DNA from: Bacteroidota bacterium
GTDB taxonomy: Bacteria; Bacteroidota; Bacteroidia; B-17B0; Aurantibacillaceae
Assembly: GCA_025963735.1 (NCBI GenBank)
Contig: JAOQAF010000073.1
Span: 1-32,179 of the forward strand
DNA: 32,179 nt
Direction: 5' to 3'
The number at the start of each line of letters is the position of its first letter. Position 1 is the first letter of the stretch. Shown in pieces: positions 9,468 to 32,179 of the stretch. A program made the position numbers and the translations under genes. Below the pieces are notes generated by a model. It made no database searches and was not told the DNA's origin. It was given only the letters and a program-made list of their open reading frames with translations.

Positions 9468-11537
9468 TTATTCTTCTTCTCCGTCTTCCGTTTCTTTTTT
9501 GGTATCATTACCTTTTGGAACACCCGGATTTTTTGGAGCGTTAGGATCAACATAATCAAAACTTAATATTTTGAAGGTTGTTCTGCGATTCTTCTGGTGT
9601 AAAGCTTCTTTTTCTTCTTTAGATTTAGCTGCCTTAATAGTAGCATCAGAAACCAGGGGCTGAGTCATACCTAAACCTTTAGCTGTTAAGCGTGCTGCAG
9701 GAATTCCCTTTTCTTTTACAAGATAATCAACACAAGATTGCGCGCGGGCAGTTGATAAAGTCATGTTACTAACGGCCTTACCACGTGTATCAGTGTGAGA
9801 GTTTAACTCAACAATAATTGTTGGGTTATCCTTTAAAATATTGTACAGGTAATTAAGTGAATCTTTAGACTCCGGTTTAAGCGCGGCGCTTCCTAATTCA
9901 TACTGAATTTCAGGCATTCTTAAATCAGGTATAACGGGCTTTACCATAAAGTCTGCCGTAAAATTAGTAGACTCATCTTTCCCAATTGTTGAAATGATTC
10001 TTTGATCTTTATTAGCTAAATAACCATCTTTTGGAAATGAAGGTGATTTAGAGTTTTTACTGGTTTCAGTTGAAACGGTGTAAGTTACTTTCTCTTTTAA
10101 TTTATCTAATTTATAAGTACCGTCTTTTGCGGTTGTGAATTCGTTTATAGATCCGTCAGAACCTATAATTTTTACCTTAACCCCTTCAACGTTTTCTCCC
10201 TTACCTTTACCGGTATTAGTATTTCCTTCGCTTAATACAACACCTTTCAGGTTAAAAACTAAAGGAGGTAAATTAAATGACCAGATATCATCGCTTCCTT
10301 TTCCGCCTTCGCGGTTACTGGTAAAATATCCTTTTTGTTTTTTTCCTTCATAAACAATTCCAAAATCATCGGCTGAAGAATTAAGAGGATATTTAAGGTT
10401 TTCAACCGGCTTGGTGAATTTACCATCGGCTCCTGCTTCTGCAACAAAAATATCCATACCACCCATTCCCGGGTGATAGTTTGATGAGAAGTATAATTTT
10501 TTATTATCGTCGGAAATGGTTGGATACATTTCATCTCCTTCAGTATTTACGCTTGGCCCCGCATTAACCGGCTGACCCCAGGTGTTCGCTTTCGCATCAA
10601 ATGAACAGCTCCAGATATCAGCGCCGCCATAACCGCCACTCATTTTTGAAGTAAAATATAAAGTTTTTCCGTCCGCTGAAAGTGAAGGATGACCAAATTG
10701 AACGGTATCATTATTAAAAGGTAAACGTTGTGCTTCGCCCCAGGTACTGCCTTGTTTTTTAGCCATGAACAAAGCACATTTGTTTTGTTTGTTTTTTTCT
10801 TCAGGGCAACGGGTAAAGAAAATCATATCTCCTTTTTTACTTACCCATCCGCGGCCTTCATTAACAGGAGAAGAAATTGCAGGTGGTAAAAGAACAGGAG
10901 TAGACCATTTTCCGTTTTTATCTAATTTTGTTTCATATACATCTGAGTGATTTGTGCCAAGGTTAATTTCCTGAGAACCTAATGCTCCCTCTCTGCGGGA
11001 TGTAAAAATTAATGTCTGATATTTTTTGTCGCTGTAGCTCGGAGCGTAATCGCTTTCTTTTGAGTTGATTAAGGACATGTTCTCAATTTTGTAACGTTGA
11101 GGAGCATCTTTCCACTGTTGTGCAAGTTCACACGATTTTACGCCTAAATCTCCTTTTTTACTGTCGCCGCCTTTTGATTTGTAGTTGTTATATTCTACAA
11201 TCGCTTCAGGATATTTTTGCTGAACTTTTAAAACTTCAGCCAAACGTAAATAAACTGTAGGATCATCAAAATTAGAAGCGATCGCTTTCTGATAGTATGT
11301 TTCAGCACCTTTGTAATCGTTAATTTCCTGACAAGCAATACCTGATTTGTAAAGGATCATTGGTTTCTTCTCTTTTGAAGCCTGACCATACACCTGCTTA
11401 TACATGTTTAAAGCATTAAAATACTGGCGGGCTTCGAAGCTCGCATCGGCTTTTTTTAATAGTTTTTGTGAAAATCCGGAAGCCATTAAAATAACAGTGG
11501 CTAAAGCTGTTAAAGTAAGTCTAGTATTGTGTTTCAT
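9468..11537 (-). CDS. OmpA family protein with TPR, PD40/WD40-like propeller and carboxypeptidase-regulatory-like domain (PorE-like architecture)
   Basis: 689 aa; TPR-like YFNALNMYKQVYGQ...YKGAETYYQKAI; PD40-type blades GHPSLSADGKTLYFTSKMSGGYGGADIW and MYPTISDDNKKLYFSSNYHPGMGGMDIF; CRD-like GENVEGVKVKIIGSDGSINEFTTAKDGTYKLDKL; OmpA-C IVELNSHTDTRGKAVSNMTLSTARAQSCVDYLVKEKGIPAARLTAKGLGMTQPL. Confidence 0.93.
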   Translation of the reverse strand: MKHNTRLTLTALATVILMASGFSQKLLKKADASFEARQYFNALNMYKQVYGQASKEKKPMILYKSGIACQEINDYKGAETYYQKAIASNFDDPTVYLRLAEVLKVQQKYPEAIVEYNNYKSKGGDSKKGDLGVKSCELAQQWKDAPQRYKIENMSLINSKESDYAPSYSDKKYQTLIFTSRREGALGSQEINLGTNHSDVYETKLDKNGKWSTPVLLPPAISSPVNEGRGWVSKKGDMIFFTRCPEEKNKQNKCALFMAKKQGSTWGEAQRLPFNNDTVQFGHPSLSADGKTLYFTSKMSGGYGGADIWSCSFDAKANTWGQPVNAGPSVNTEGDEMYPTISDDNKKLYFSSNYHPGMGGMDIFVAEAGADGKFTKPVENLKYPLNSSADDFGIVYEGKKQKGYFTSNREGGKGSDDIWSFNLPPLVFNLKGVVLSEGNTNTGKGKGENVEGVKVKIIGSDGSINEFTTAKDGTYKLDKLKEKVTYTVSTETSKNSKSPSFPKDGYLANKDQRIISTIGKDESTNFTADFMVKPVIPDLRMPEIQYELGSAALKPESKDSLNYLYNILKDNPTIIVELNSHTDTRGKAVSNMTLSTARAQSCVDYLVKEKGIPAARLTAKGLGMTQPLVSDATIKAAKSKEEKEALHQKNRRTTFKILSFDYVDPNAPKNPGVPKGNDTKKETEDGEEE

Positions 11538-21554: not shown

Positions 21555-21660
21555 GGAAGCCGTAAATTACCGATATTTTTTTGTTAAAAACTGTCATATT
21601 CAAAATATTTTTTTAATTTCGTAAAATTAATGATCCTCAAGGCAGGACGTGAGATTTTAT

Positions 21661-24600
21661 ATGAGAAAACATTTATTTTCCTTTTTATTTATTGCAGTTT
21701 CGTTTTTAACAATTCATGCTCAGATTGATACAAGTTTTTGGTTCGTAGCCCCTGATATATCTGCCACGCTTGGCGATTCTCCTATCACGCTTCACGTGCA
21801 AACCTACAATCAGGCCGCCACTGTTTATGTTCGTCAGCCTGCAAATCCATCAGGTGTAAATGCCATTTTAACCGTTGGCGCTTCCACCACTCAGATTTTA
21901 AACCTAACTCCTTCTATTACAGCTGTTGAAAGCGCCCCGGTTAACTCTGTAAGTGCAAAAGGTATTTACATTAGTTCTAACGCCAATGTTTCAGTGTATT
22001 ATACGATTGGTGCAGGTTCAAACAAAGAAATGATTAGCCTGAAAGGGCAAAGGTCTGTTGGCACTGATTTCTACACACCTGTGCCTAATTCATTAACCAC
22101 AGCGGTAACCTATACCGATGCCGGAGTGGGTTTTGATGTGGTTGCAATTGGCTCCGGTATAACCACTATTTTAATTACACCAAGGGCTGCCTGCGTAGGA
22201 AGGGCTAAAAATGTTACCTTTTCAAAAAGTCTTTCACAGGGCGAAACTTTTTCGGTGAGAGATTTAAATACCGTTAACCCTAGCCAGCTTGCCGGTTCTA
22301 TTATTTCTGCAGACAAGCCAATAGCAGTTACTGTTAGTGGTATTGTTCAAACAAACGGGGCCTGCGTTTCCAGTTATGCCGACCAGATTACGGCGAGCGA
22401 CCAGATTGGAAAAGATTATGTTATTCTCAGAAGTAATACCGGTTCTACAGATGTGGCTTATATCCTCGCCACCGTTAATTCAAGCAGTTTAACCATAACC
22501 AATTCAACGGCAACGGTTAACTGGCTTATTAATTTCGGAGAGACTTATTCGGTAAGCATCACAGATCCTATCACCTACATTAAATCTGATAAGCCCGTTT
22601 ATGTTTTACACGCGAGTGGATATGGCTGCAAGTTAAGCGCGGCTCAGGTTGCACCAGCGTATTGCGCCGGTTCCTATACTACTTCTTTCATTAGATTAAG
22701 CAGCGATTCATTAAATCTAAATGTGGTTACCCGCATCGGAAATCAGAATTCATTTACCTTAACTTCCAATGGCACCAATGTTCCTGTATCTGGAGCAAGC
22801 TTTACCACAGTGCCCGGTAGCGGAGGAAATTTAGTTGCCGCCCGTTTATTCTATCCTGTAGGTGCAATTCCTGTGGGATCACATAACGTATTAAAAAACA
22901 AACAGGATTTATTTGCACTGGGTATCCAGAATGGAAGTACCCTTGGTGGAAGTGCCTATGCCTATGGTTCTGAATTTGGAGCGAGCGCATTTGTATTTGC
23001 TAATACCGCGCCAACCGCAACCATTTGTTCAAATACTACATTTACCCTTAACGGCCAGGTAGGCGGCGGACCCAATACCGGTGTATATTCTTTCAATGGC
23101 TTTGGAACTCTTTCCGGCCCGGCGAATCAGATAACAAATAATGTTTACACGCCTAATCCGGTTGATACTAATATTAAGCCGGTTAAATTTATTTTATCGT
23201 CAACTGGCATTTGTCCTAACAAATCTGATACATTTAAACTTACCGTTAAACAGGCGCCCATTGTTAACGGCGGCTTTGATGTAAATGTTTGTTCAAATAA
23301 TCCAACGGTTCAGTTAAATGGAAATGTAATCGGTCCCACCAACCAGGGATTCTGGACTGTAATAGCGCCGGGTAACGGTACTTTTGTTCCAAGCGTTAAT
23401 AATTTTACAGCAACCTATAATCTTTCAAACACAGATACTGCACTTACAAGTATTAAAATTGTTTTAACCAGTACGAACAATGCAGGTTGTAACGCGGTTT
23501 CCGATACCATGAAAGTTTTTGTTAATAAGGCTCCGCTTGTAAAATCAAGCAATGTAAAACCCCTGGTACGTTGCGCTAATAATGCCAATGTATTTCTTAA
23601 CGGAACGGTTTCGGGTCCTACAACTTCTTCCGGAACATGGACAACTACCGGTACGGGATACTTTACGCCCAATAACCAGTCTTTAATCTGTAATTATATT
23701 CCAAGTGTATCTGATATTCTTTCAGGAACAGTTACTTTAAAATTAACCAGCAGTGGAGGTGCACCATGCAAGGCGGTTAGCGATAGTGTTAATGTAATAT
23801 TTACACAACCTGTAACCGTTAGCACCGGTGTTGATTTAAACAGTTGTACAAATAATCCGGTTGTTAATTTAAATGCAGTAATTACAGGAACAGCTACCAA
23901 TACAGGTATGTGGTCAGGAGGGGCAGGTGTTTATTCTTTATCAAACACTGCACTCACACCAACTTACACCGCCGCAGCTTCTGAGGTTGCAGCTGGCTTT
24001 GTTGTGTTAACCTTTACCACCACTAATAATGGTATATGTAACGGGGTATCTGACCAGGTAAGAATTGATTTCAGACAAGAACCGGCAGCCAATTTTACTG
24101 TGAATACAGTGTGTTTAAATCAAAATACAATTTTTACAGATCAATCAGTTAACACATCCGGTTTAGGGGCTATTAATAACTATAATTGGAATTTTGGTGA
24201 TGGTATTTCTTCAACAACGGTTAGTCCGGTGCATACATACTCAACCGCAGGTACATTTACCGCGCAATTGGTAATCAGCAGCACCTTTGGGTGTTATGAT
24301 ACGATCAGCAGGCCGGTTATTGTGCATGTTCTGCCGGTAGCGGGCATGAGCATCAGCAGGGCCTGCAGTGGTTCAGCCCAACAAATAACCTTTACCGATC
24401 AATCAACAATTCCGGCACCGGGAAGCATCGCGTCCACCGGTTATTATTGGGATTTCGGAGGATTTGGTTTCTCAATATCCAAAGACACTGCCATTGTTTT
24501 TCCATCACAGGGATTATACAATATAACACACGTTGTAACTTCAACCAATAATTGCGTTTCAACTATTACGCAATCGGTTAATATCACTCCAAAACCACAA

Positions 24601-25122
24601 GCCAAGTTTTTATATACCAACAACAATACTCAATCTCTTGAAACTAATATTGCGTTCATTGATTCTTCAAAAGCCGCTGTATCATGGACCTGGGATTTTG
24701 GTAACGGAACAACCAGCAACATACAAAATCCTATTGCCACTTATATAAGCAACGGCACCTACACTGTTTCTTTAACCATAACCGATCAGTTTGGTTGCGC
24801 CAATACATATACGGCCCAGGTGCGGATCTCCAACATCGTATCTGAAATAACACAATTGATCCCGAACATTATTTCGCCGAACAACGATGGAAAAAATGAT
24901 TTCTGGCGTCTTGATTTTATAAATGTGTTTTACCCTACAGCCGAAATAGAAATATTTAACCGGTGGGGCGAGTCGTTGTTTAAAAGCACGGGCTATTCAA
25001 ATGCCTGGGATGGAAGTTACAAAGGAAACCCTTTGCCTGTAGGCGCTTATTATTACACAATACAGCTCCACGACCCTAAGGATAGTAAGGTGATTAAAGG
25101 AACTGTAACATTATTAAAATAA
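21661..25122 (+). CDS. Giant T9SS-exported surface protein: IgGFc-binding-like N-terminal region, ~90-aa repeats, PKD domains, gliding motility-associated C-terminal (CHU_C) domain
   Basis: Start placed at ATG 21661 (signal peptide MRKHLFSFLFIAVSFLTIHAQ); PKD motifs YNWNFGDGISSTTVSPVHTYSTAGTF and VSWTWDFGNGTTSNIQNPIATY; tail IPNIISPNNDGKNDFWRLDFINVFYPTAEIEIFNRWGESLFKSTGYSNAWDGSYKGNPLPVGAYYYTIQL. Confidence 0.9.
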   Translation: MRKHLFSFLFIAVSFLTIHAQIDTSFWFVAPDISATLGDSPITLHVQTYNQAATVYVRQPANPSGVNAILTVGASTTQILNLTPSITAVESAPVNSVSAKGIYISSNANVSVYYTIGAGSNKEMISLKGQRSVGTDFYTPVPNSLTTAVTYTDAGVGFDVVAIGSGITTILITPRAACVGRAKNVTFSKSLSQGETFSVRDLNTVNPSQLAGSIISADKPIAVTVSGIVQTNGACVSSYADQITASDQIGKDYVILRSNTGSTDVAYILATVNSSSLTITNSTATVNWLINFGETYSVSITDPITYIKSDKPVYVLHASGYGCKLSAAQVAPAYCAGSYTTSFIRLSSDSLNLNVVTRIGNQNSFTLTSNGTNVPVSGASFTTVPGSGGNLVAARLFYPVGAIPVGSHNVLKNKQDLFALGIQNGSTLGGSAYAYGSEFGASAFVFANTAPTATICSNTTFTLNGQVGGGPNTGVYSFNGFGTLSGPANQITNNVYTPNPVDTNIKPVKFILSSTGICPNKSDTFKLTVKQAPIVNGGFDVNVCSNNPTVQLNGNVIGPTNQGFWTVIAPGNGTFVPSVNNFTATYNLSNTDTALTSIKIVLTSTNNAGCNAVSDTMKVFVNKAPLVKSSNVKPLVRCANNANVFLNGTVSGPTTSSGTWTTTGTGYFTPNNQSLICNYIPSVSDILSGTVTLKLTSSGGAPCKAVSDSVNVIFTQPVTVSTGVDLNSCTNNPVVNLNAVITGTATNTGMWSGGAGVYSLSNTALTPTYTAAASEVAAGFVVLTFTTTNNGICNGVSDQVRIDFRQEPAANFTVNTVCLNQNTIFTDQSVNTSGLGAINNYNWNFGDGISSTTVSPVHTYSTAGTFTAQLVISSTFGCYDTISRPVIVHVLPVAGMSISRACSGSAQQITFTDQSTIPAPGSIASTGYYWDFGGFGFSISKDTAIVFPSQGLYNITHVVTSTNNCVSTITQSVNITPKPQAKFLYTNNNTQSLETNIAFIDSSKAAVSWTWDFGNGTTSNIQNPIATYISNGTYTVSLTITDQFGCANTYTAQVRISNIVSEITQLIPNIISPNNDGKNDFWRLDFINVFYPTAEIEIFNRWGESLFKSTGYSNAWDGSYKGNPLPVGAYYYTIQLHDPKDSKVIKGTVTLLK
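22999..24078 (+). repeat. About four tandem ~90-aa coding repeats within the first giant protein
   Basis: Consensus by eye: CxNNPxVxLNGxVxGxTxxGxWTTxGTGxFxPxxxxxxxxYxxSxxDxxxGxVxLxLTSTxxxxCxxVSD; ~270 nt per unit. Confidence 0.7.
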
Positions 25123-25124
25123 TT

Positions 25125-26126
25125 ATGAGGACTAAGATTTTTATAGCAGTATTGTTTTTGTATGCCAGCGTTTCAATAGCACAACAACAGACTTTATACA
25201 GTAATATTATTTTAAATCAATACGTTTATAATCCTGCCTATGCCGGGGTATATAAAGGTGTTGAAATAAACGCCAATTACCGTCAGCAATGGGCGGGGTT
25301 TGAAGACGCACCTAAAACAGCCATCGTAAGTGCTTACGGAACTTTTAAAAAGAAACCCAACATGGCAGTGGGTGGTATGGTAATAAACGACAGAAGCGGA
25401 TTGATAGGACGCACAGCGTTTTACGGATCTTACAGTTACCATGTTAAGCTTGGTAAAAAAGTAAACCTTGGGTTTGGCCTTTCAATGGGTGGAGTTTCTT
25501 ACAACGTAAAGGTTTACAATGCAAAACCTTACGATAAGGATGACGAATTTTTAAAGTCGAATATTTTAAATGCCAACGCCTTTGATGCTAATGCCGGGCT
25601 TTATCTTTACAGTAAAAAATTCTTTTTTGGATTCAGCGGCCAGCAAATTCCAAATGCAAAAATTCGGTGGGTAAATACAATGGGGCGCTTAACCCCGCAT
25701 TACTATGCTATTTCGGGAGTGAATATTACTCTTGATAAAAAGAAAAAAGAGTGGGTGATTCAGCCGGCTTTACTAGCAAGGTTCAACAGTCCTGTACCCT
25801 ATCAACTCGAAGCGAATTTAAGACTCATTTATAAAAACATGTTCTGGATTGGCGGTAACTACCGTTTTGGAGCGTCGGCCAGTGGTATGTTTGGATGCAC
25901 CATAAGTAAGCTTGTAACTTTCGCGTATTCTTATGACTACGCGCTCACTTCATTGCAAAAATATTCTAACGGCAGTCACGAACTTTTATTAACTGTTTCT
26001 TTTGCTTCCAAAAAACAAAAAACAGCAAGCGATAAAGTTACGGATGCTGATGAAGAAGAATTTAATAATCTTGATAATAGCATTAAATCAAATTTAAAAA
26101 ACAAAAAGAATGAAGAGAAGAAATAG
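25125..26126 (+). CDS. PorP/SprF family type IX secretion system membrane protein
   Basis: 333 aa; QQQTLYSNIILNQYVYNPAYAGVYKGVEINANYRQQWAGFEDAPKTAIVSAYGTF...GGMVINDRSGLIGRTAFYGSYSYHVKL. Confidence 0.95.
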   Translation: MRTKIFIAVLFLYASVSIAQQQTLYSNIILNQYVYNPAYAGVYKGVEINANYRQQWAGFEDAPKTAIVSAYGTFKKKPNMAVGGMVINDRSGLIGRTAFYGSYSYHVKLGKKVNLGFGLSMGGVSYNVKVYNAKPYDKDDEFLKSNILNANAFDANAGLYLYSKKFFFGFSGQQIPNAKIRWVNTMGRLTPHYYAISGVNITLDKKKKEWVIQPALLARFNSPVPYQLEANLRLIYKNMFWIGGNYRFGASASGMFGCTISKLVTFAYSYDYALTSLQKYSNGSHELLLTVSFASKKQKTASDKVTDADEEEFNNLDNSIKSNLKNKKNEEKK

Positions 26127-29100
26127 ATTCCTGGTTGTACTGTTATTTTTTACTCTTAAAGTGTCAGTATCGTTTGCACAGATTGATACCGCTTTTTGGT
26201 TTGCGGCCCCATGGGTAACACCCGATCACCACTGGAAAGACAATTATGTTTTACATATTTCAAGCTTTAACAGTGCAAGTACTACTGTAAGGTTACGTCA
26301 GCCATCCGCAATCAGTCCTAATAGATACGATACCACTATAATTCTTGGACCCAATCAAACTTTTGATTATATTTTCTGGAGAGATAAATTAGCAGGGCCT
26401 TCCGAACTGGCTTTTGATTCACTGGAAGTTAGGCCGGCAAATACTGTTCTTCCTTATGGTTTTTATATTTCGTCCACTTCTAACATTACTCTTGTTTATG
26501 ATGTGGTAACAAGAGCTCCAAGTTTTTATAATCCCGAAACATTTTCATTAAAAGGACAAAATGGATTAGGTTTGGAATTCGTTTGTCCGTTCCAGACAAA
26601 ATGGTTTAACCAAACATTGGGTGGAGATTTAAACGGTGATGGAATTGTAACGCAGCCAAAACAACAAATTAATATTGTTGCATCTCAGCCAAATACAGTT
26701 GTATGGATTACGCCAAAGTGTAATGTTGTTGGTCATCCCGCAAACGTAACCTATAGTGTGCTGTTAACTAATTACGGAAGCGCCTATACGATTGAAAACG
26801 CGGTTCAAAACACAAATATAGCAGGTAATAATCTTTCAGGCTCGGTAGTTGTTGCCGATAAACCCATTTCAGTAACAGTAGCCGATGATTCGGTGAGAGG
26901 AGTAACGGGTTGTTTTGATTTAATGGGAGATCAGATTGTTCCCGTAGATATAGTGGGTACAGATTATATTTTAAATAAAGGATTTATGAATGCTGCCGAG
27001 CCCGACGGCGCTTATATTGTTGCAACCGACAATTTTACACAGATTACAATTAATGATGGTGTAACTACTACCACGTTAGTAAATAAAGGCGACACTTATT
27101 TTTATAAAACCACTCAGGCGCTTACTTATGTAAATGCCACCAAGCCTGTATATTGTTTACATGCAACAGGAAATGGATGTGAGCTCGGAGAGGCTTTATT
27201 ACCTCCTTTAAATTGCGCCGGCTCAAACCTGGTGGCTTTTTCAAGAAATACGGCTCAAAACTTCCATCTGAATATACTTTGTAAAAACGGGGCTCAAAGC
27301 ACCTTTACCTTAAATAATGCTACGTCATCTGTTACAGTGCCTATTACAGCAGCTGACTTTACCGTGGTACCTGGTACCGCTACTTTGGTAGGCGGACCAT
27401 ATTATGGCGCCCAGTTAAACCTGCAAAGCACTGCAGTTTTACCTGTAGGATCCTATACTATTGGAAATAACACCGATGTGTTTGCTCTTGGCGTAATAGA
27501 TGGGGGAACAAGCACAGGAACATTATTTCATTACATGTCCTCTTTTTTAAGAAAAACATTTGTACAAACAACAACTGTAACGCCGGTATGCGTGGGGCAG
27601 TCTCCCACGGTAGCCTTAACAGGAACTGTTTCAGGCGGTGCAATCACAGGTATTTGGACAACCTCCAACGGCACGGGTACTTTTTCTCCGTATACTTCAA
27701 CTGTTAATACTATTTCAACAATTTATACTTTGTCTAATAATGACACATTGTTGTCGAGCATTGATTTCTTTCTTACGTCAACTGGTAACTGTACACCTAA
27801 AACCAATTCTATGACGGTAACGGTTAATCAGCGGCCAAAATTGGTAATTGGAAGTAGTACATCCATGTGTAAAAATAACATTCAGCCCATTGTATTAACA
27901 GGCACGGTAAGTAATGCGCTTGGTGGAACCTGGAGTGGTGGTAACGGCGGGGCTTTTGGCAGTCCTGGTGTTAATACCACTTACACTCCTTCGGCCGCAG
28001 ATCTGGCCGCCAACAGCATCACCCTTACCTTAACTACTTCCGGACCTTTACCCGGGTGTTTAAACAGCTCTAAAAGTTTAACGGTTGGTTTTGTGAACCC
28101 CCTTGTGGTTTCTGCCGGACCAAGTACGTATGTGTGTACTAATTCACAAACCCTTGCACTGAATGGCAGTGTTACAGGCTTTACCAATACAGGCTTATGG
28201 AACACTAACGGTACAGGTATTTTTCAACCCGGCAGTGCCAGCCCAAGTGCAACCTATGTGTTAAGTGCCAGTGATTTAAGTTTAACCTCTTTAAGCTTTA
28301 CTTTAGTTTCTACCAACAATCAAATTCAAAACTGTAACGCGGTAACGGATAATATGGTGGTAAATATTATTGCCAAACCTTCGGTAACTGCGGCATCTGT
28401 TCAGCCTATCTGTGCCTCCTCTTTGGTGGTGCCTTTATCGGGAACCGTTAGTGGTTCCGCCAACCAGGGATTCTGGAGCACACCAAACGGTACTGGCGTT
28501 TTTACACAAATTGCCCCGGCAAATGCTTCCTATACTATGAGTGCCAATGATACGCTGTCAGGGAATGTTACTTTTGTGTTGGGTTCAACAGGAACAGTTT
28601 GCCCAACAGAAACCGATACAATTAAATTAATTATTTTAAAGGCCCCGGTAATTCAGATCAGTTCCTCAAGTCCAACTGTATGTAATAATACGCCCATATC
28701 CTTAACTCCTACCATTACAGGCGCAACATCTTATATCTGGAACTCGATAAGTAACGGAACCTTCACTCCTTTATCAGGAGCTATATCTGCGAGTACAACC
28801 GTGCTAAATGGCCAGTATATGCCCTCCGGCAGCGATGTATCTAACGGCAGCGTGGTCTTAACGCTTACCGCCTCCACAGGAAGTTGTTCGGCCTCCAAAA
28901 CATTTACGGTAGGTTTCCAACCTTCTCCTAAAGCCAATTTTAATTTTTCTCCTGTAAGGTGTAAAGATTCTCCGGTCGTATTTACCGACGGTTCTCTGCC
29001 AAACGGAACGTCCAACCTATCCTATAACTGGAACTTCGGGGTAAGTCCTACCTCGGTTTCAAGTTCTTCCAATCCTATATTTACCTACACCAATGTAGGA

Positions 29101-29967
29101 AGCTACATTGTAACGTTTACTGTAACTGGCACTAATAACGCGGTTAATCCGCCACTTCAATGTCCTGATACAACGAGTAAGCGCATAACAATTTATCCGT
29201 TGCCTTTGGTTGATTTTAGTTTTAATAATACATGTCAGGGATTAGGAAGTATTTTCAGAGATTCATCACGGGTATCTGTTGGAAATGTTGTGGCATGGAC
29301 CTGGCAATTTGGTGATGGCACCCCGAATGTATCAGTTAAAAATCCGGTGCATACTTATACTAACCAGGGAACTTACAATGTGGCTCTTACTGCAACCTCC
29401 AATTACTCTTGTCAGTCAACCTTAACCAAGTTGGTTACTGTTAATCCAGCCCCCAATGCCGAGTTTGGTATGACCAACAACCCGTCTGTAGCCCAAGAGC
29501 CGGTTTATTTTTCTGATTTTTCAACGCCTACCAATTCGATTACCAACTGGTACTGGGCTTTTGGTGATGAGGGATCATCAACCGCCAGTGCGCCTATTCA
29601 CAGTTATTCTGGCGCCGGTATTTTTGTAATTACCCTAACGGTGTTTGATAATAACGGGTGTTCAGATACAATAAGTAAATCAATTGAAATAACTTTATTA
29701 CCTCAGGTACCAACTGCATTTACACCAAATAATGATAATAATAACGATCTGCTGTTTGTAAAAGGCGGTCCCTTTGAAAAGATGGTGTTTAGAGTTTATG
29801 ATAGTTGGGGAGTTTTAATGTTTGAAACCACCGACCAGAAAACAGGTTGGGACGGTAAAAAAGACGGAGTAGATCAACCGCTTGGCGTATATGTGTGGAC
29901 CTTACAGGCCGATATGTATAATAACAGGCAGGTTAAAAAGAATGGTGATGTTACTTTAATCCGATAA
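26110..29967 (+). CDS. Second giant T9SS-exported surface protein: IgGFc-binding-like N-terminal region, ~91-aa repeats, PKD domains, CHU_C domain
   Basis: 1285 aa; signal peptide MKRRNRFLVVLLFFTLKVSVSFAQ; QIDTAFWFAAPWV parallels QIDTSFWFVAPDI of the first protein; PKD motifs VVAWTWQFGDGTPNVSVKNPVHTYTNQGTY and ITNWYWAFGDEGSS; tail PTAFTPNNDNNNDLLFVKGGPFEKMVFRVYDSWGVLMFETTDQKTGWDGKKDGVDQPLGVYVWTLQA. Confidence 0.92.
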   Translation: MKRRNRFLVVLLFFTLKVSVSFAQIDTAFWFAAPWVTPDHHWKDNYVLHISSFNSASTTVRLRQPSAISPNRYDTTIILGPNQTFDYIFWRDKLAGPSELAFDSLEVRPANTVLPYGFYISSTSNITLVYDVVTRAPSFYNPETFSLKGQNGLGLEFVCPFQTKWFNQTLGGDLNGDGIVTQPKQQINIVASQPNTVVWITPKCNVVGHPANVTYSVLLTNYGSAYTIENAVQNTNIAGNNLSGSVVVADKPISVTVADDSVRGVTGCFDLMGDQIVPVDIVGTDYILNKGFMNAAEPDGAYIVATDNFTQITINDGVTTTTLVNKGDTYFYKTTQALTYVNATKPVYCLHATGNGCELGEALLPPLNCAGSNLVAFSRNTAQNFHLNILCKNGAQSTFTLNNATSSVTVPITAADFTVVPGTATLVGGPYYGAQLNLQSTAVLPVGSYTIGNNTDVFALGVIDGGTSTGTLFHYMSSFLRKTFVQTTTVTPVCVGQSPTVALTGTVSGGAITGIWTTSNGTGTFSPYTSTVNTISTIYTLSNNDTLLSSIDFFLTSTGNCTPKTNSMTVTVNQRPKLVIGSSTSMCKNNIQPIVLTGTVSNALGGTWSGGNGGAFGSPGVNTTYTPSAADLAANSITLTLTTSGPLPGCLNSSKSLTVGFVNPLVVSAGPSTYVCTNSQTLALNGSVTGFTNTGLWNTNGTGIFQPGSASPSATYVLSASDLSLTSLSFTLVSTNNQIQNCNAVTDNMVVNIIAKPSVTAASVQPICASSLVVPLSGTVSGSANQGFWSTPNGTGVFTQIAPANASYTMSANDTLSGNVTFVLGSTGTVCPTETDTIKLIILKAPVIQISSSSPTVCNNTPISLTPTITGATSYIWNSISNGTFTPLSGAISASTTVLNGQYMPSGSDVSNGSVVLTLTASTGSCSASKTFTVGFQPSPKANFNFSPVRCKDSPVVFTDGSLPNGTSNLSYNWNFGVSPTSVSSSSNPIFTYTNVGSYIVTFTVTGTNNAVNPPLQCPDTTSKRITIYPLPLVDFSFNNTCQGLGSIFRDSSRVSVGNVVAWTWQFGDGTPNVSVKNPVHTYTNQGTYNVALTATSNYSCQSTLTKLVTVNPAPNAEFGMTNNPSVAQEPVYFSDFSTPTNSITNWYWAFGDEGSSTASAPIHSYSGAGIFVITLTVFDNNGCSDTISKSIEITLLPQVPTAFTPNNDNNNDLLFVKGGPFEKMVFRVYDSWGVLMFETTDQKTGWDGKKDGVDQPLGVYVWTLQADMYNNRQVKKNGDVTLIR
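27559..28923 (+). repeat. About five tandem ~91-aa coding repeats within the second giant protein
   Basis: Five units over ~1365 nt with the pattern LTGTVSG...GxWTTxNGTGxFxP...YxxSxxD...LTSTG..C; same repeat family as the first protein. Confidence 0.7.
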
Positions 29968-29969
29968 GC

Positions 29970-30965
29970 ATGAAAAAATTTAAAAGATATCTAATAGTAC
30001 TTTGTTTAGGAACCATGTCTTTATTAAAGGCCCAGGATTTTCACCTGAGTTTATATGACGCTGCTCCTTTATTTTTAAACCCTGCAATGACAGGCTTGGT
30101 AGACGGTAAAATGAGAGCGCACGCGCAATACCGTAATCAATGGAATTCAGTGGCTTATAAGCCGTATACAACCGCGCTTGTAAGTTTTGATATGCCTAAA
30201 GGCAAATGGGGCTTCGGTGGTCAGGTTACCAATATGCGCGCCGGGATAGGAAATTACAATGTGTTTCAGGCCCTTGGTTCTGTAGCTTATGCCGTGCCTT
30301 TAGATAAAAACAGGTTTCACAATCTTTCGCTGGGTTTACAGGCAGGCTTTACTCAAAAGAGAATGGAATATCAGGTATTTACTTTTGATAACCAGTGGAG
30401 CACAAAAGACGGGGGCTCATTTGATAAAGGACTGGGTAACAATGAAAATTTCAACAGTCAGGTGCAGTTTCAGGAAGCTGTTAACGCCGGTTTATTATAC
30501 TTCTACTCCAAACAGCAATCGCGTATAAATCCCTTTATTGGTTTAAGCGCTTTTAACCTTACCCAGCCAAAAGAAAGTTTTGTTGGTGGAAACAACCGTT
30601 TGCCGATGAGGTTATACGGGCATGCCGGGGTGAGAGTGAACGTGAGTGAATTATTATATTTTATTCCTAAGGTATTGGTTTATAAACAGGCAAATATTGT
30701 TCAGCAAACTTACGCGCTTGATGGAGGTTATTATTTTAAGGGAGAAAAGTTTTACGCACTGGCGGGTTATGTTTTCAGGGTAAACGACGCGAGTGTTGGT
30801 TACATAGGCTTTAAGAAAGATAATTATATCATGAAGGTGGGTTATGATTTTAATACTTCTTCACTAAGGGGTACAACAAAAACACGCGGAGCGTTTGAAA
30901 TATCATTAACATGGCTTGGTAAAAAAGGTAAAAATCAAGAAGTTAAAAATTGTCCAAGATTATAG
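29970..30965 (+). CDS. PorP/SprF family type IX secretion system membrane protein (second copy)
   Basis: 331 aa; AQDFHLSLYDAAPLFLNPAMTGLVDGKMRAHAQYRNQWNSVAYKPYTTALVSFDMPKGKWGFGGQVTNMRAGIG. Confidence 0.95.
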   Translation: MKKFKRYLIVLCLGTMSLLKAQDFHLSLYDAAPLFLNPAMTGLVDGKMRAHAQYRNQWNSVAYKPYTTALVSFDMPKGKWGFGGQVTNMRAGIGNYNVFQALGSVAYAVPLDKNRFHNLSLGLQAGFTQKRMEYQVFTFDNQWSTKDGGSFDKGLGNNENFNSQVQFQEAVNAGLLYFYSKQQSRINPFIGLSAFNLTQPKESFVGGNNRLPMRLYGHAGVRVNVSELLYFIPKVLVYKQANIVQQTYALDGGYYFKGEKFYALAGYVFRVNDASVGYIGFKKDNYIMKVGYDFNTSSLRGTTKTRGAFEISLTWLGKKGKNQEVKNCPRL

Positions 30966-30974
30966 AAATTATAT

Positions 30975-32179
30975 ATGTTTAAAGTCAGATCATTTTTCCT
31001 GTTAGTATTTGTTTTAATTGCTGCTGCGGGTTTTTCACAATCGAAAAAAATATGGATAGAGCTTGCAGATAATGCCTATGCAAAAAAAGATTTTGCAACG
31101 GCAGCTGTTTATTATGCTAAAGTGCTTGATGATACAACGGTTCTTAAAAGCTATGTGTTGCCTTACGAAACACAAATGGTTAACCTTAAAATGAAATCTC
31201 TTTTTAAGGTTCCTGAACTGAAAGTGTCTAAACGTAAAGACAGTACTAACCTTGCAAAGGATAATTTACAAAACGGAAGTAAATATGACTTTATCATGTA
31301 CCGTTTGGCCCAGAGTTACCGTCAGAATTTTGATTATAAACATGCCGCCGAACAATTTAAAAAATGTGTTGACAGGAAAGTTTATCCCGATGCCCCTTAT
31401 TATTATGGATTGTCTTTAATGTCGTTAAAAAAATACCAGGAAGCATTACAGGTTTTTGATGAGTATACTAATTCAGGTGCAGGTTCCGACTCTCTTATGA
31501 AAATGGCTTCAAAAAAGCAGTCTTCGTGTTACTTTGCTTTGGATACATTAAAGGGAAGAAAACTTATTAAAGTTAAAATGATGGATACCCTGGTTTTTAA
31601 CAGGGGTACAACCAGTTTTGCACCCATGTACTATTTGGGAAATAATAAATTAATTTTTACAAGCGCCCGCAAAGGTGGTGTGGTTACCGATCCTGAGAAA
31701 CAAGACTCGAGATATTACTGCGATCTGTATTATACAACTCTTGATGATACCATCTGGCAAAGACCGGTTAATTTTGGCCGTCCGGTAAATACTTCCCTGC
31801 ACGAAGGCGCTGCGGTTTTTACTCCGGAGGAGGTAATGCTATTTACCCGCTGGAGCGACAATAACCGCAACGAATCTTTTATTTATATGGCCCGCACACT
31901 CGAAGGCCGTTTTTATGAAGCCATGAAATTAGGAACTAATATAAATGTACCCGGCTTTAAATCGCAACAACCATTTGTAAGTAACGATGGCCGTATATTA
32001 TATTTTTCATCCAACAGGCCGGGAGGTAAAGGTGGAATGGATCTGTGGATGGCACCTATTAATGAAAACGGATTTATTGGTGAGGCTAAAAACCTTGGCG
32101 CGCCTGTAAACACACAGGGTGATGAAATTACCCCGTTTTTTCATGACCTTAGCCATACTTTTTACTATAGTACTAATGG
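30975..32179 (+). CDS. Partial: secreted TPR + PD40-propeller protein, PorE/OmpA-like, truncated by window end
   Basis: Read by hand because it is absent from the ORF track: ATG at 30975, MFKVRSFFLLVFVLIAAAGFSQSKKIWIELADNAYAKKDFATAAVYYAKVLDD..., then QQPFVSNDGRILYFSSNRPGGKGGMDLWMAPINENGFIGEAKNLGAPVNTQGDEITPFFHDLSHTFYYSTN; open to the last base. Confidence 0.88.
   Translation, partial: MFKVRSFFLLVFVLIAAAGFSQSKKIWIELADNAYAKKDFATAAVYYAKVLDDTTVLKSYVLPYETQMVNLKMKSLFKVPELKVSKRKDSTNLAKDNLQNGSKYDFIMYRLAQSYRQNFDYKHAAEQFKKCVDRKVYPDAPYYYGLSLMSLKKYQEALQVFDEYTNSGAGSDSLMKMASKKQSSCYFALDTLKGRKLIKVKMMDTLVFNRGTTSFAPMYYLGNNKLIFTSARKGGVVTDPEKQDSRYYCDLYYTTLDDTIWQRPVNFGRPVNTSLHEGAAVFTPEEVMLFTRWSDNNRNESFIYMARTLEGRFYEAMKLGTNINVPGFKSQQPFVSNDGRILYFSSNRPGGKGGMDLWMAPINENGFIGEAKNLGAPVNTQGDEITPFFHDLSHTFYYSTN

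Follow-up and report, generated by a model that had tools for sequence, protein, structure and literature searches.

Units composed of a substrate, its carrier and PorE are known in two model Bacteroidota. PorP-type barrels hold type B substrates of the Type IX secretion system (T9SS), and PorE links them to the cell wall (PMC9143113). In the PorE-PorP-PG1035 assembly of P. gingivalis, a substrate with a type B C-terminal sorting domain (CTD) is held on the PorP barrel, which binds PorE; PorE in turn contains TPR and propeller domains together with an OmpA-like domain that binds peptidoglycan (PMC9143113). In F. johnsoniae, a PorE homologue is encoded alongside a type B substrate and its carrier in five operons, for which static display is proposed, and secretion of a type B substrate there requires the cognate carrier; Fjoh_3952-3951-3950 and the other type B substrate-SprF-PorE operons resemble the present locus in joining a substrate, its cognate carrier and a PorE-like protein (PMC12618676). 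The general scheme of a type B substrate, an SprF/PorP protein and a peptidoglycan-anchored PorE is already published (PMC9143113, PMC12618676). The features that appear to be new here are the joining of two pairs into a composite unit and the swapping of one tip: P. gingivalis has one pair, whereas the present operon has two pairs together with one PorE-like gene that scores below the PorE cut-off, and the available portions of the F. johnsoniae report describe neither a double pair nor head exchange.

The window analysed here is one whole contig (C133) of 32,179 nt, of which the cassette occupies the right-hand third. Its five plus-strand genes are, 5' to 3', g1, PorP1, g2, PorP2 and a PorE-like gene that is cut by the contig end, and the junctions between them are a 2-nt gap, a 17-nt overlap (26110-26126), a 2-nt gap and a 9-nt gap. 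All five ORFs of the preliminary description were recovered with the gaps and overlap it had given, and Pfam and NCBIfam profiles uphold its gene types, with PKD and CHU_C/TIGR04131 domains in both large proteins, PorP_SprF in genes 2 and 4, and TPR and PD40 in gene 5. Its term "giant" was generous: the two substrates have 1153 and 1285 aa, and some CHU_C proteins elsewhere in the genome reach 2700-2900 aa. The longest ORF of g1 opens with GTG at 21649; we consider ATG at 21661 the better start because the signal peptide comes right after it. The features are as follows.

21661..25122, plus strand: g1, a surface protein with signal peptide, IgGFc_binding-type head, repeat stalk, PKD and type B CTD (CHU_C)
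24859..25119, plus strand: type B C-terminal sorting domain of g1, grouping with the CTDs of other PorP1-side substrates
25125..26126, plus strand: PorP1, a carrier of the PorP/SprF family; its C-terminal tail is charged, lacks Cys and varies in length among relatives
26110..29967, plus strand: g2, a surface protein with IgGFc_binding-type head, repeat stalk, PKD and type B CTD
26182..27528, plus strand: exchanged part of the g2 head (about aa 25-473; breakpoint about aa 460-480)
29704..29964, plus strand: type B C-terminal sorting domain of g2, grouping with the CTDs of PorP2-side substrates
29970..30965, plus strand: PorP2, a PorP/SprF-family carrier, predicted as a 14-stranded barrel with a C-terminal tail ending in invariant CPR[LI]
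30951..30962, plus strand: PorP2 tail codons, Cys328-Pro-Arg-Leu
30975..32179, plus strand: PorE-like gene, N-terminal 401 aa (TPR, PD40); the other 302 aa, with OmpA, lie at the end of contig C70 (L232:1498-2406, minus strand)

Across the same genus and family, 41 loci repeat the five-gene order with similar lengths and tight junctions, and 35 of these have all five genes or nearly so. Near-identical lengths and junctions in so many loci argue that the cassette is not a chance arrangement, and the synteny comparison that had been proposed as a check indicates that it is inherited together. All named relatives are metagenome-assembled genomes of uncultured Bacteroidota; likewise, a scan of GTDB species for PorP2 returned 79 loci, all in metagenome-assembled Bacteroidota, and IgGFc_binding-type genes occur in 81 of 150 relative genomes. 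Beyond close relatives, where PorP2 is 45-50% identical, the arrangement is a three-gene unit of large protein, PorP2-type carrier and PorE-like protein (L210-L229), counted only where the upstream sequence is intact; four candidates on truncated contigs (L192, L194, L196 and L200) are probably cut cassettes and were set aside. In distant relatives, the heads of these units differ very strongly from the g1 and g2 heads.

A probable wall-anchored display unit

By their sorting domains, g1 and g2 are predicted T9SS type B substrates. Both exceed the cut-offs of TIGR04131 (70.2 bits for g1 and 40.1 for g2; cut-off 35) and PF13585 (84.1 and 48.9; cut-off 27). Both also carry an N-terminal IgGFc_binding domain (PF17517) that the preliminary description did not mention, the only two such domains in the source genome. 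Searched alone, the heads score 76.0 bits (g1) and 98.4 bits (g2) against a cut-off of 25.6; hmmscan with full-length g1 did not list the domain, while the g1 head by itself does score. The family takes its name from an animal protein, and we do not read the profile match as immunoglobulin Fc binding. The predicted structure of the g2 head domain ends at about residue 477 (pTM 0.85), and neither sequence search nor fold search returned a confident solved analogue for it. The stalks of the two proteins (within 21649-25122 and 26110-29967) are built of repeats, each about 80-90 residues long, in which the pattern LNG-V-G-TN-G-W recurs; these match no Pfam model above cut-off, the PKD domains close to the end being the sole recognised part.

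The OmpA C-terminal domain that the preliminary description expected beyond position 32179 is on another contig. A search with the C-terminal half of a relative's protein locates the remainder of gene 5 at the terminus of contig C70, in the same genome, with 87% identity and an OmpA match at E=2e-22. Rejoined, the gene encodes 401 + 302 residues, compared with roughly 702 in relatives, which also have OmpA, and the domain order is TPR, PD40 propeller, CarboxypepD_reg and OmpA. This domain content, in a cassette inherited together, bears out the PorE-like identity that had been proposed for gene 5. Even at full length, relatives score only 325-362 against the PorE model NF052230, below its curated cut-off of 600, and we therefore call the protein PorE-like rather than PorE. 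Loci that lack g1-PorP1 still have a PorE-like gene after their PorP2-type carrier, so that PorE service to PorP2 is better supported than service to both pairs. A separate TPR/PD40/OmpA protein of PorE-like architecture is encoded elsewhere in the window (9468-11537, minus strand).

Taken as a whole, the cassette is probably best explained as a Type IX-secreted, wall-anchored display unit whose distal g2 tip is exchanged by recombination. The operon most likely works like the PorE units of F. johnsoniae and P. gingivalis, but with two substrates. Both g1 and g2 would be exported through SprA, after which their sorting domains would collect g1 onto PorP1 and g2 onto PorP2, the C-terminus remaining attached; attachment by the C-terminus would make the N-terminal head the distal tip. 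The PorE-like protein would tie at least the PorP2-g2 assembly to peptidoglycan via its OmpA domain; on this scheme, display is predicted to be static and not to involve gliding. What the sequences themselves show is the gene content and its conservation, carriers that are not sisters, agreement of CTDs with carriers, discordance of the head alone, and copies in which the same stalk bears different heads; we infer secretion, static anchoring, attachment by the C-terminus, selection and a ligand.

Carriers and the PorP2 tail cysteine

Both carriers are members of the PorP/SprF family (TIGR03519/PF11751; 224.9 for PorP1 and 158.9 for PorP2, cut-off 90.55), and they align only weakly with each other. 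The predicted model of PorP2, of modest confidence (mean pLDDT 66), has the 14 strands of a FadL/PorV-like barrel followed by the tail, and among solved structures it matches 8gl6_F, a carrier chain of the T9SS translocon (TM 0.61). The tail ends in CPR[LI] in 35 of 35 complete cassette PorP2 copies and in all 30 of the further PorP2-type carriers examined, and its cysteine is the sole one after the signal peptide in most cassette copies. PorP1 copies have neither the tail cysteine nor CPR[LI], ending in a charged tail of variable length.

The invariance of this cysteine in all complete PorP2-type carriers is a point in favour of a different reading, in which the locus encodes a mobile adhesin for gliding, of the SprB-SprF kind, and a disulfide at the tail cysteine links PorP2 to a GldK track. 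SprB-SprF does share with the cassette a type B CTD, a cognate PorP/SprF carrier and a cysteine in the carrier C-tail. Tail cysteines link SprF and PorG to GldK, and PorG of P. gingivalis has a single cysteine (PMC12635249); the source genome contains both SprA and a GldK with cysteines, the two components covered by our check of the gliding machinery. However, no PorE gene adjoins sprF, and SprB is a repetitive, moving protein of 669 kDa; in F. johnsoniae, a PorE-like gene in the operon goes with static substrates (PMC12618676). Moreover, the SprF tail carries Cys-X-Cys, whereas PorP2 has one cysteine (CPRL/I) and PorP1 none. We consequently think a gliding system unlikely and favour static display. 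A covalent PorP2-GldK link is a testable idea rather than a finding, and the invariant single cysteine of PorP2-type carriers would offer a direct test of whether disulfide tethering reaches beyond SprF and PorG.

Two other PorP loci of the source genome may be recorded here. On contig C232 (L009), a PorP gene lies directly before GldK and further genes, as in the usual core Type IX operon, and its product falls on the PorP1 side of the PorP tree on a long branch. On contig C211 (L007, L231), a shorter second GldK-like protein follows a PorP with a tail ending in SCPSF, which could be a separate carrier-track pair.

History of the g2 head

Trees of ten parts from 27 genomes, with rpoB as reference, set the g2 head apart. 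It has 3-6 of 24 splits in common with any other part, whereas the other parts have 9-20 in common among themselves, and placing it on the tree of the other cassette genes costs 835 log units of fit relative to its own tree. The corresponding losses on the cassette tree are 22 for the g1 head, 19 for the g1 stalk, 26 for PorP1, 21 for PorP2 and 10 for the PorE-like gene. The loss of 133 log units for the g2 stalk means that exchange is not strictly confined to the head, and rpoB loses 172, a disagreement that leaves room for some transfer of whole cassettes. Among the parts of the cassette, only the N-terminal head of g2 thus appears to have a foreign history, as if tips had been traded while the mount was kept.

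The change of affinity lies inside the gene. Window scans place it at about residue 455-470 of g2, and similarity plots cross at about aa 480 in L074, a locus of genus g6 with a head like that of genus g1 and a stalk like that of its own genus. In genome G033, a second g2-like gene follows PorE; across the first 1400 nt the two copies share 55-78% identity per 100 nt, but their last 2400 nt are 96-100% identical, giving identical stalks with different heads, at a locus in a metagenome-assembled genome that could hold a misassembled repeat. In G019, an assembly of roughly 20 contigs, a complete g2 precedes the head of a second copy, and the contig stops at the head/stalk junction; at least 240 nt at the start of the contig with PorP2-PorE are identical to the end of g2, the pattern that a collapsed repeat would produce, and the second copy is accordingly deduced from the contig break. 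Contig breaks inside g2 are suggestive as a general sign of repeats. An extra upstream module in G003 was considered as a recent donor and rejected, having only about 66% nucleotide identity to the g2-PorP2-PorE part.

Most probably, the anchor half is inherited as a block, and the g2 head moves from lineage to lineage, and from copy to copy inside one genome, through homologous recombination where head and stalk meet. That the CTD, carrier and wall anchor stay fixed while the head is repeatedly replaced from extra head copies beside the operon is a scenario to which we give an even chance. Extra g2-like copies in G033 and G019, together with deep head types that recur across genera, might instead reflect hidden paralogy, that is, several old g2-like genes and differential loss with no recombination within the gene. 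We regard this as quite improbable, because whole-gene paralogy cannot explain a switch inside g2 when the stalk, CTD, PorP2 and PorE of the same loci keep a common history, and an identical stalk with a different head inside one genome (G033) also speaks against it.

Read from alignments and trees, the discordance of the head shows exchange, rather than adaptive selection or programmed switching. In the source species no recent swap is visible, since its head type is common to its two nearest relatives. Selection for diversity at an exposed binding surface is a likely reason for exchange of the head, which, as the part under change, is also where contact with a host, prey, phage or neighbour is likely. 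In other phyla, surface proteins are diversified by recombination between copies, with a variable exposed domain on a conserved anchor. The cassette resembles these in its variable exposed domain, conserved anchor and extra copies as possible donors; it differs in having a Type IX sorting domain and carrier as the conserved anchor, and in that the variation is seen between loci and not as switching within a strain. Our literature searches, to which most subscription papers were out of reach, found no report of head exchange in Type IX substrates, nor any on IgGFc-type Bacteroidota proteins. If true, Type IX display with an exchangeable tip would let C-terminally anchored surface proteins of Bacteroidota mirror those systems in which the C-terminal tip varies and the N-terminus is conserved. 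A possible replacement of the other head occurs in L061 (G014), whose g1 is longer (1526 aa) and has its head on a long branch.

Origin of the two substrate-carrier pairs

The bodies of g1 and g2 are paralogous as far as the last PKD domain (about 1060 aa aligned by BLAST, 32% identity), and their heads are sister clades. The sorting domains follow the carriers instead: the CTD tree, although individual short branches have modest support, splits nearly as the PorP tree does, with g1 among PorP1-side and g2 among PorP2-side substrates, and the CTD and PorP distance matrices of ten substrate-carrier pairs from the source genome are correlated (Mantel rho 0.68, permutation p 0.0005). This agreement supports the earlier proposal that each PorP is dedicated to the adjacent large protein. 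Because CTD and carrier travel together and bodies do not, the same pattern opposes duplication of a complete module. Co-evolution of carrier and neighbour among orthologous cassettes is uninformative on this point, since in partial correlations every part except the g2 head correlates with the others and all of these share one history. As sorting domains track carriers while heads move freely, carrier specificity could be tested by CTD swaps.

A simple tandem duplication of the giant-PorP module followed by ordinary divergence, the origin suggested in the preliminary description, would account for the homologous bodies and sister heads but is very improbable indeed, since PorP1 and PorP2 belong to separate old clades, one in each half of the PorP tree, where further carriers from this genome also occur on both sides and between them, since forced monophyly of PorP1, PorP2 and the carriers of the three-gene units (the decisive test, as it includes PorP2's obvious relatives) is 103 log units worse and rejected (AU 1.6e-6), since g1/g2 homology ends before the sorting domains, and since the three-gene unit with a PorP2-type carrier occurs alone elsewhere. 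Assembly from parts would fit better: a unit of the substrate-PorP2-PorE type would have come first, and a g1-PorP1 pair would then have been added upstream, the body of g1 being paralogous to g2 while its sorting domain and carrier derive from another PorP lineage. How the g2 body arose is less settled than the origin of its anchor, because the heads in the distant units are so divergent.

Other arrangements of related genes were seen among the relatives. In L181 and L182 (genus g8), a divergent three-gene unit adjoins the cassette in opposite orientation; its first protein (2092-2671 aa) has a different head type, and its PorP nests with the PorP2 of genus g8. In a distant member of the class (L087:1-20000), five IgGFc_binding-type CHU_C proteins lie in tandem with no PorP between them.
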